From positions 1 through 29,555 of IMG/VR virus record IMGVR_UViG_3300031999_001378: a stretch of 29,555 nt of DNA, one strand, 5' to 3'. A program made the translations under genes and the position numbers. Positions 23,458 through 26,089 of this stretch are shown piece by piece. The DNA is from a virus. Below the pieces are notes generated by a model. It was given only the letters and a program-made list of their open reading frames with translations, was not told where the DNA came from and did no database searches. Every line of letters starts with the position of its first letter. Within the stretch, counting starts at the first letter, position 1.

Positions 23458-24159
23458 ATGGCAACCGTAGATTTAGTTGCGTCAACCGTTCTAGCCAAGG
23501 CATCTACTCTGTTAAATGATACGGCTAGAACTGTCTATACTTATACTGCGGTTCTTCCATACCTTCAGATTGCGCTACAAGAGTTGCAGGAACATTTTGA
23601 GCTTAATAACATTCCTGCAACTCAACTTTCTTCTGCATTAATTAATATTCCTGCTGGAATTACTGAGATTGTTTACAATGGAATTGGTGTCCCTACCCTT
23701 CCAGATAATATGATTGAACCCCAACAGTTATGGGAACGCGAGGAAGGTATTGACCCCTATGTTCCAATGGGACGAAGGGATTATATTCCACATAACTTTG
23801 AAGGAACCCTAACTGGAAAGTTTAGTTTCTATACTTGGGAAAATAATATCATTAAGTTCCTACCCGCGAATCGAGATAATGATATTAAGATTGATTACAT
23901 TAAAGACTTGTTCACTCCCTTGGTGGATGAGACTTCTTTGATTAACTGTATCAATGCTGCTACATTCCTTGAATATCGAACTGCTGCTTTGTGTGCCGAA
24001 TTCATTGAGAGAAATCTAGCAAGTGCAGGTTCTCTTAATAATTATGCGGTTCTCGCACTCGATAGAGCTACAGGAATCGGAGTTAAGGGTAAGCAAACTA
24101 TCCTTACTCGTCGTAGACCATTTAGAGCTGGATTTAAAAAGCGCGGATTCATGACATGA
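23458..24159 (+). CDS. Putative head-tail connector/adaptor protein
   Basis: The product has 233 residues from ATG 23458. It begins with helices (MATVDLVASTVLAKASTLLN; YLQIALQELQEHFELNNIP), has a beta-rich middle, and ends in a helical bundle and a very basic tail (TRRRPFRAGFKKRG). The overall pattern (two N-terminal helices, LQELQE, WEREEG, DNDIKIDYI, FLEYRTAALCAEFI) is familiar from phage head-completion or adaptor proteins that sit under the portal. The assignment is by pattern and position. The stop overlaps the HNH start as ATGA. Confidence 0.6.
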   Translation: MATVDLVASTVLAKASTLLNDTARTVYTYTAVLPYLQIALQELQEHFELNNIPATQLSSALINIPAGITEIVYNGIGVPTLPDNMIEPQQLWEREEGIDPYVPMGRRDYIPHNFEGTLTGKFSFYTWENNIIKFLPANRDNDIKIDYIKDLFTPLVDETSLINCINAATFLEYRTAALCAEFIERNLASAGSLNNYAVLALDRATGIGVKGKQTILTRRRPFRAGFKKRGFMT

Positions 24160-24593
24160 AACCTTGCATAATTAGTAATGAAACTCTGAGTCATGGTTAT
24201 CCTAGAAGAAATATAAATGGAAAGTTTATATATTTGAATAGGCATATCTTAGAACAGAAATTAGGTAGACCTGTTAAAGAAGGTTATGAGGCTTGTCATT
24301 CTTGTAATAATACTAAATGTATTGAACCTGAACATATCTATGAAGGAACTCATCAAGATAATATGTGGGATTTAATTAAAGCTGGAAACACTGATTTCTT
24401 TGGTGGGTATGAAAAAGTAAGAACACATTGTCCCAAAGGCCATGAATATACACTTGAAAATACTAGAATAAATAGACAAGGTTGTAGAAGTTGTATAATT
24501 TGTAATAGAGAACATGCTACTGAATCTAATAAAAGGAAATTGAACTTTCAGAAAAAGTATTGGGCTGAAAGGAATAAAGCGGTAGCTATATAA
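24156..24593 (+). CDS. HNH endonuclease (HNH_3 type), free-standing homing-like gene
   Basis: The 145-residue protein has the HNH_3 core: His30, then CHSCNNTKCIEPEHIYEGTH with the catalytic His48, Asn51/52 and His60. A downstream zinc finger follows (HCPKGHEYTL and CRSCIICNREH). Such enzymes nick or cut DNA and commonly spread as homing genes between phages. It overlaps the upstream gene by ATGA. The following tail gene lacks a normal start and its frame stays open back into the HNH 3' end, so the HNH gene probably landed at that 5' end. Base composition is more AT-rich than its neighbours. Confidence 0.85.
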   Translation: MKPCIISNETLSHGYPRRNINGKFIYLNRHILEQKLGRPVKEGYEACHSCNNTKCIEPEHIYEGTHQDNMWDLIKAGNTDFFGGYEKVRTHCPKGHEYTLENTRINRQGCRSCIICNREHATESNKRKLNFQKKYWAERNKAVAI

Positions 24594-24664
24594 GAGAGCA
24601 CGAACCTATACGCTTTGATAGCTTTAATGGTCTATATAATAGGGGTGTCATTATCGATACTCCT

Positions 24665-26089
24665 ATGGACCATTTTACTGAATGTAACAATTTAAAATTC
24701 ATTGGTGACAATAGTTTTGGGTCACGAGATGGAATTGGTTTGCATCAGAATGTAGCCGTTCCACTATCTAATGTTCTTAGAATTTATAATTACCCCACTA
24801 CAGATGAAAATACATTATTGGTTCTAATTTCTGGTGGAGATATTTATCATGTTGTAGATTCTACTACAGTTCATGGTCCAATATTGTCTATAGCTGGAAT
24901 GACTGATTTTGGATTTGTTCCATATGCGGGACGTGCATACATTACACCATTTTTTACTGAGTTAGTAGGAGACTTAAATAGGGAACGCGGGTTACAGAAC
25001 AATTTCCTTTATGTTTATAAGGGGGATGGAACTGCTGCACGTAAAGCTGCTGGAACTGCTCCCACTGTTGCCGCTACGGTTGCGAATGGAGCTGTTGGTT
25101 ATACTGACGCTGGTATTCATATATTTGGTTATGTTTTTGAGACTGATACTGGTTATCTCTCCGCACCGGGGGGATTGGTTGCTTTCACTACATCAGCTCT
25201 TTTATCCCTTAATTTTTCTACTATTGCTGTTAGTCCTTCTGTTTCTGTTACTAAAAGACATTTGGTAGCTTCAAAAGTAATTCAAACTTACAATGGAGAT
25301 GTAAACGGCTACCAACTTTATTTTATTCCAAATGGAACTATTGCAGGTAATATTGTTACAGTCCTCAATGGAGTCTCCTTCTATGACCAAGATTTATTAC
25401 TTGATGCGAGTCACCTTTCTGATAATTTCTCTGAGATTCCAGCGGGTGTTGGGCTTTGCACGTATCATAATAGGTTAGTCACATATTGCACTTATGATAA
25501 TGTTTCCGTAGGATATGTGAGTGCAACAGGTGAACCCGAAGCAATTAATCAGATTAATGGAGTATTACTATTTCCTCCTGATGGTAATCCTCTCACTAAT
25601 GCAACTGAACTAAGAGATGTTCTATACATGTTTAAAAGAGGTAGAACAGGTTCATTCGTTGATAATGGAGATGAACCTGCTACATGGCCTTATTCTAATG
25701 TTGATAATGCGATGGGCACTGGAGTTCATGGTATTGCAACAGTTTTGGATTCAGGTTCATCTAATATTGATTATTTAGTTGTAGCTACCTTTAAGGGAGT
25801 TACAATGTTTAATGGAAGATATATTCTTCCTGAACTTACTTGGAAGATTCAGACTACTTGGTTGACTCAAGATTTTAAAAATAAAAATCGTGTTATTCAA
25901 ATAGTTAATGATTCAGTAAATCAGCTTTTATATATTGTTATGACAGATAGAACAGTTATGTTTGGTAATTATTCTAATGGATTTGACCCTAAAAGTATTC
26001 GTTGGTGTCCTTGGACTTTTTGGGTATTTGTAAATTCTCTCGCTCTTGTAAATGTAAACGAACTTATTTTAGGTTGTGACCAGGTTTAA
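24665..26089 (+). CDS. Tail or tail-associated protein, possibly beta-propeller/nozzle-like
   Basis: The only ordinary start is ATG 24665, giving 474 residues, but it has no Shine-Dalgarno. The same frame is open back to 24578, and the translated upstream part (EHEPIRFDSFNGLYNRGVII, then DTP) reads as natural coding sequence joined to MDHFTECNNLKFIG. No ATG, GTG or TTG lies in that extension, so the original start has been lost or a rare start (ATA at 24608, ATT at 24650) is used. The body repeats beta-rich blades (NTLLVLISGGDIYHVVDS; NRLVTYCTYDNVSVGYVS), suggesting a propeller-like fold as in podovirus nozzle or stabilisation proteins. Name by pattern only. Confidence 0.6.
   Translation: MDHFTECNNLKFIGDNSFGSRDGIGLHQNVAVPLSNVLRIYNYPTTDENTLLVLISGGDIYHVVDSTTVHGPILSIAGMTDFGFVPYAGRAYITPFFTELVGDLNRERGLQNNFLYVYKGDGTAARKAAGTAPTVAATVANGAVGYTDAGIHIFGYVFETDTGYLSAPGGLVAFTTSALLSLNFSTIAVSPSVSVTKRHLVASKVIQTYNGDVNGYQLYFIPNGTIAGNIVTVLNGVSFYDQDLLLDASHLSDNFSEIPAGVGLCTYHNRLVTYCTYDNVSVGYVSATGEPEAINQINGVLLFPPDGNPLTNATELRDVLYMFKRGRTGSFVDNGDEPATWPYSNVDNAMGTGVHGIATVLDSGSSNIDYLVVATFKGVTMFNGRYILPELTWKIQTTWLTQDFKNKNRVIQIVNDSVNQLLYIVMTDRTVMFGNYSNGFDPKSIRWCPWTFWVFVNSLALVNVNELILGCDQV

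Follow-up and report, generated by a model that had tools for sequence, protein, structure and literature searches.

How is a phage tail gene translated when another gene appears to have taken over its start codon? The question is raised by a 29,555-base viral record (hereafter the window, the whole stretch of DNA analyzed), in which a homing-endonuclease gene lies between an adaptor-like gene and a tail gene that lacks a canonical start. The record is probably a fragment and, since contigs from several relatives reach ~46 kb, part of the phage genome may be absent from its 29.6 kb. The junction has the following features:

23458–24159, plus strand: upstream virion gene, head–tail adaptor-like (PF24175 SU10_adaptor, E = 1.4e-4; 22.8 bits, a weak match below the curated cut-off of 27)
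24157–24159, plus strand: adaptor stop codon TGA, overlapping the ATG at 24156
24156–24158, plus strand: ATG, apparent ancestral start of the tail gene and now the start of the HNH gene (the same ATG starts the tail gene in the HNH-free relatives L002–L006)
24156–24593, plus strand: free-standing HNH homing-endonuclease gene, 145 aa (phrog_826; PF13392 HNH_3)
24159–24592 (equally 24160–24593, the flanking A being common to both), plus strand: 434-bp insertion (from flank alignment and composition)
24590–24592, plus strand: ATA exactly where the ATG was lost, the proposed start (ATAA replaces ATGA over the HNH stop)
24591–24593, plus strand: HNH stop codon TAA (read from the sequence)
24590–26089, plus strand: tail hub/nozzle-like β-propeller gene with a proposed ATA start, otherwise intact (homologues, structure model)
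24593–24664, plus strand: N-terminal 24 codons, which would be missing if ATG 24665 were the start (homologue alignment)
24626–24674, plus strand: predicted RNA hairpin over ATG 24665 (folding energy against shuffles)
24665–24667, plus strand: earliest canonical start in the tail frame, an unlikely one (no Shine–Dalgarno (SD) sequence, paired bases)

The adaptor-like gene has relatives in 34 viral contigs. The tail protein itself had no match in Pfam or PHROGs, the weak SU10_adaptor match belonging to the upstream gene only. AlphaFold2 modeled it as a β-propeller with a mean pLDDT of 75.3, residues 1–52 being mostly of low confidence, and the predicted fold resembles that of solved phage tail hubs. 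The best four Foldseek matches in the PDB were phage tail chains; T7, SU10 and GP4 were also listed, and the matches among viral models included P22 Gp10-like proteins. VIA-align superimposed the model on the Pa223 tail (Z = 20.4, rmsd 3.3, 314 aligned) and on a chain of the P22 tail complex (Z = 19.9, rmsd 4.4, 309 aligned), although many unrelated WD40 propellers tie with these scores. Based on the propeller matches and the adaptor-like gene just upstream, a role of the T7 gp12/P22 gp10 kind is likely, and the modeled protein is likely to be a podovirus tail hub or nozzle, which presumably makes it essential.

The open tail frame begins at 24578, contains no ATG, GTG or TTG before 24665 and runs past the HNH stop at 24591–24593, a layout described in the first-pass annotation and reproduced here. 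Its translation reads SGSY-IREHEPIRFDSFNGLYNRGV... To the annotation, everything ahead of ATG 24665 looked like authentic tail protein. This is true of codons 2–25, but not of the leading SGSY, as the homology begins at 24590/24593 and not at 24578. A first tail-protein search found relatives in nine viral contigs; a wider scan kept 80 of 129 loci, many of them already found earlier, and gave 69 distinct HNH-free relatives once identical copies had been removed. All 69 have an ATG, GTG or TTG (ATG in 67) in frame 1–8 codons ahead of a conserved R-E/D-H motif, and the window alone lacks a canonical start near it. Compared with L011, its closest relative (86% identity in the tail protein), codons 2–25 are identical in 13 cases, synonymous in 11 and non-synonymous in none, while the rest of the gene has 268 identical, 138 synonymous and 68 non-synonymous codons. 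Such a pattern shows constraint on codons 2–25 in this lineage, which could predate the insertion. Among 24 tail homologues, residues R2, H4, P6, F12 and G14 are invariant.

The assignment of 24156–24593 as an HNH gene is solid at the sequence level, with matches to phrog_826 (E = 7.3e-24) and to PF13392 HNH_3 (28.5 bits, over the family cut-off of 24.8). Its site of insertion is defined by relatives that lack it. In L002–L006, the adaptor stop shares an ATGA with the tail start, and the first codons of the tail gene are ATG AGA GAG/GAA CAT. The junction in HNH-free relatives is GGATTCATGACATG^AGAGAGCAYGAACC, and the window has flanks identical in arrangement, with the HNH gene behind that ATG: the left flank is kept through ATG 24156–24158 and the right flank resumes at 24593, the two being separated by 434 bp. 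When joined, the window flanks are identical to L014 at 100 of 120 nucleotides in an ungapped comparison (and at 28 of the 30 around the joint), and to L013 and L017 at 91 and 89 of 120. The insert is more A+T-rich than its neighbors, with a G+C content of 30.6% vs 39.7% and 36.3%. No HNH_3 domain was found in the 34 related contigs (0/34), and tblastn with the HNH protein gave no match in the other 123 loci. The site is thus polymorphic, occupied in the window and uninterrupted in its HNH-free relatives. Because the same flanks surround the empty site, ATG 24156 can be recognized as the former tail start that now serves the HNH gene, which uses this ATG together with the initiation signals upstream of it. 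Capture of the start by insertion of the HNH gene is regarded as nearly certain. The earlier proposal that the HNH gene had displaced the tail start is upheld by this comparison, but the ancestral ATG was not cut off or destroyed: it is the ATG at 24156–24158, the start of the HNH gene.

The exact ancestral junction is deduced from the ATGA group, which is next-closest and matches better, because L011 differs at this point: in L011, as in L007/L012, a TAA stop comes first and the ATG stands apart behind it. The window and L011 group together with full support in the tail-protein tree, while the adaptor tree leaves this grouping unresolved. L001 (369–374) has an extra AGT codon directly behind the tail ATG, which is the insertion point; it may be the scar of a lost insertion or the result of ordinary slippage. 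In many more distant relatives (L018–L036), the adaptor/tail junction holds other genes, roughly 320–1620 bp in length, so genes have frequently been gained at this site. A search with the junction pattern returned 27 viral-contig matches, but five window genes were looked for in them and none was encoded there, and a single-sequence scan with the HNH protein found no second contig with the same insertion; nor did the adaptor and tail scans reveal one among the contigs covered. Neither the tail gene nor the HNH gene is duplicated within the 29.6-kb record, and a scan of bacterial genomes with the tail gene found no relative. The idea that the 3′ end of the HNH gene is a copy of the end of the adaptor gene was dropped, since 33% of shuffles score equally well.

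The tail coding sequence is whole but without a canonical start, with ATA over the HNH stop at the old start position. Of the options raised in the first-pass annotation, a non-standard start at this ATA is the best supported. The anti-SD energy at ATA 24590 is −3.9, equaled or exceeded in strength by 12 of 22 window genes and similar to that at the tail ATGs of relatives (−3.1 to −4.1), and the ATA bases are unpaired in the RNA model. AUA is a very weak start codon in E. coli. In the accessible text of PMC13009471, natural AUA starts are described for infC, ccpN and citZ of S. aureus, working at ~10% of AUG and at up to 30% for ccpN; those sites carry extended SD motifs, whereas the window site does not. 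An AUU start is put at ~0.3% of AUG in the available part of PMC10666635. The ATA at 24590–24592 overlaps the TAA of the HNH gene in the usual −4 geometry, given as the commonest spacing among coupled genes in the passages available from PMC12548453 and PMC10666635.

The proposed mechanism would begin with a free-standing HNH homing gene, whose product putatively cleaves the adaptor/tail junction, inserting at the adaptor/tail ATGA directly behind the tail ATG. The insert would at first have come with a second ATG, so that it was bounded by ATGA on either side, and a single G-to-A substitution at 24592 would then have converted the downstream ATGA to ATAA, leaving the HNH stop unharmed. Ribosomes that end HNH translation at UAA 24591–24593 would reinitiate on AUA 24590–24592 with fMet-tRNA and make full-length tail protein, at lower yield. 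Full-length tail protein made through termination–reinitiation at AUA is the favored reading, with a probability of roughly 0.6.

A precedent is found in the Corndog-type mycobacteriophages, which have an HNH gene ahead of the tape-measure gene (tmp) and an ACG at the position of the old ATG. LC-MS/MS detected Corndog tmp peptides that start right behind the ACG, and the authors, in 2015, left two explanations, initiation at ACG or ribosome bypass; the portions of the paper available do not state that the HNH gene captured the tmp ATG (PMC4351075). Seven Corndogvirus genomes with the HNH gene (L265–L268, L270–L272) were compared with three without it (Catdawg, Shida and Dylan). Catdawg and Shida read GACGTGGGCTG followed directly by ATG CCG ATA CAT, and Dylan has the same gene arrangement. 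In all seven HNH-bearing genomes, GACGTGGGCTG is followed by ATG GCC GGC, the start of the HNH gene, whose TGA stop precedes T CTT ACG GCA ATA CAT. Since the HNH start is the tmp ATG of the HNH-free relatives, the Corndogvirus HNH gene has taken that ATG, as in the window.

The parallel extends further. The cluster O phages Corndog, Firecracker and YungJamal carry the insertion at a virion gene unrelated to the tail gene, with the architecture of the window: the HNH gene begins at the ATG of the host gene at an overlapping stop/start, the host gene is left without ATG, GTG or TTG, its former start is occupied by a codon that differs from ATG by one transition, and the annotated start lies too far downstream. 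The Corndog type differs in that the codon is ACG rather than ATA, the HNH stop ends 4 nt before it without overlap, and the empty site has a −1 overlap. The annotated tmp start is at locus position 1674 in six genomes and at 1212 in Mori (L272), and the homologous frame begins at ACG 1056. Excluding ATG, GTG and TTG, 7 of 61 codons are one base from ATG, so that two such codons would occur by chance with a probability of ~0.013, although the numbers are small. A Corndog tmp N-terminus at Ala would fit initiation with fMet followed by removal of Met. The two insertions look independent, as the HNH proteins have no significant BLASTP match to each other, even though both match phrog_826 and related models. 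The window is accordingly a second, independent case of a kind for which one published, unexplained precedent was found.

Other ways of dealing with the missing start have to be weighed against reinitiation at AUA. One is to begin at ATG 24665, the first canonical in-frame start, an N-terminal truncation that the first-pass annotation had also offered. This is improbable. The truncated protein would lack all five invariant residues, and the position of Met 24665 holds Leu, Pro or Lys in several relatives. The comparison with HNH-free relatives that the annotation had called for has been made, and none of the 69 starts at the Met equal to 24665. ATG 24665 has no SD sequence (21 of 22 window genes match or exceed it in strength), and its bases are fully paired (about 0 unpaired) in a model in which it is covered by the hairpin at 24626–24674, inside the tail coding sequence; an 81-nt segment there folds at −25.1 kcal/mol (z = −4.5), stabler than all 200 shuffles. 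The hairpin was rejected as a conserved element because covariation among 34 sequences does not exceed that of shuffles and RNAalifold predicts no pairs; it is particular to the window phage and matters here solely because it masks ATG 24665 locally. Joining of the two frames by recoding is less probable still. The annotation had seen no good slippery heptamer, and inspection of the codons by eye likewise revealed no X XXY YYZ site for a −1 frameshift in 24578–24593; the sole matched pair is ATA/ATA at +2. Peptidyl-tRNA-Ile could in principle slip by +2 from ATA 24588–24590 to the overlapping ATA 24590–24592 with UAA in the A site, fusing HNH and tail proteins. Hopping requires just such a pair of matched, overlapping codons at a stop; constructs have yielded +2 shifts and stop-hops, and T4 gene 60 is an example from nature (PMC5009743, as far as its accessible text goes). 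However, no stimulator was seen, and the slip would attach a 145-aa nuclease to a virion protein. Nor can a hop explain both cases, as the last HNH codon in Corndogvirus is GGG, unmatched to ACG.

The HNH gene might instead lie within a self-splicing intron, or form an intein, since exact excision of the 434 bp would rejoin ATG to AGA GAG and restore the ancestral gene. This is hardly credible: there was no Rfam match in 23900–24900 up to E = 10, the insert is all coding and leaves no space for a ribozyme, and RT-PCR saw no splicing in Corndog, according to the available portion of PMC4351075. An intein is contradicted by a length that is not a multiple of three and by an HNH frame that is out of the tail frame and has its own stop. 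A more serious concern is that the tail gene is fully or almost fully silenced, in a defective or minor variant, or that base 24592 is a consensus error that hides a true ATG and a normal ATGA-ended HNH cassette. The window is known from one metagenomic contig, so that a one-base error or minor variant is possible. ATGA is usual at junctions between HNH genes and the next gene, and becomes ATAA by one G-to-A change. An HNH alignment scan that kept 80 of 397 loci, 67 of them distinct, found the next frame starting with NTG in an NTGA overlap with the HNH stop in 14 of the 67, a share that may be no higher than among non-HNH gene pairs. On the other side, the neighboring genes of 230, 233 and 920 aa are intact on the contig, and all 7 of the HNH-bearing Corndogvirus genomes compared retain the non-ATG start, showing that such states persist. 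Silencing or error is judged unlikely, though less so than the truncation, fusion and excision explanations.

Reinitiation at AUA after start capture, the preferred reading, can be set beside other HNH insertions. In Streptomyces phage Hank144, an HNH gene lies between thyX and gp55, at a junction that reads GTGA in the HNH-free phages Sentinel, Triumph and Spernnie. As in the window, it inserted at an overlapping stop/start, but the gp55 start remains canonical, a TTG in a TTGA overlap with the HNH stop. The last bases of that HNH gene, GGGTGGCGCC (L127, 1923–2390), are similar to those that close the thymidylate synthase gene in relatives without the HNH gene. At L191, several empty-site relatives have TAATG/TGATG junctions and the rest other spacings, and the downstream ATG is kept in an ATGA overlap with the HNH stop. 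The sequences thus show HNH genes inserted at stop/start junctions, or directly beside them, in four cases (the window, Corndogvirus, Hank144 and L191), in which the downstream start is kept (ATG), weaker but canonical (TTG) or near-cognate (ATA, ACG). A possible third case of start capture is L170 (2414–3190), where the HNH stop TAA is followed by ATC GCT TCA..., opening a frame of 109 codons in whose first part no canonical start was seen; searches found no relatives, and a weak match to phrog_22863 has residue 3 aligned to profile position 3. A flank scan with L203 returned only its own contig, and the HNH gene of Jada was rejected as a clean empty-site case because the empty relatives differ by other genes.

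Related arrangements are known. The free-standing mob/seg endonuclease genes of T4, such as mobE between nrdA and nrdB, resemble the window in that the HNH gene is promoterless and its start overlaps the stop of the gene before it, which suggests translational coupling; loss of the downstream gene's start is not described in the accessible text of that source (PMC2988022). The "ShiLan domain", a hidden HNH in a phage methylase, is likewise an inserted HNH without support for an intron or intein, but it lies inside the methylase gene, out of frame and not at the start (PMC11855218, available sections). The parts of PMC12724721 and PMC3706429 at hand contain no start-displacement case.

A second case, with a different virion gene, HNH protein and codon, argues for near-cognate reinitiation over bypass. 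It has a practical side as well: gene callers would remove 25 residues from the window tail protein, and far more from the Corndog relatives. Tentatively, start capture may be a recurrent HNH lifestyle, in which the gene settles exactly behind a host ATG at an overlapping stop/start, appropriates the initiation site and leaves the essential host gene to near-cognate reinitiation at AUA, ACG or, possibly, the AUC of L170. If so, the stop codon of the HNH gene would become part of the start signal of the host gene, tying translation of the host gene to the parasite.
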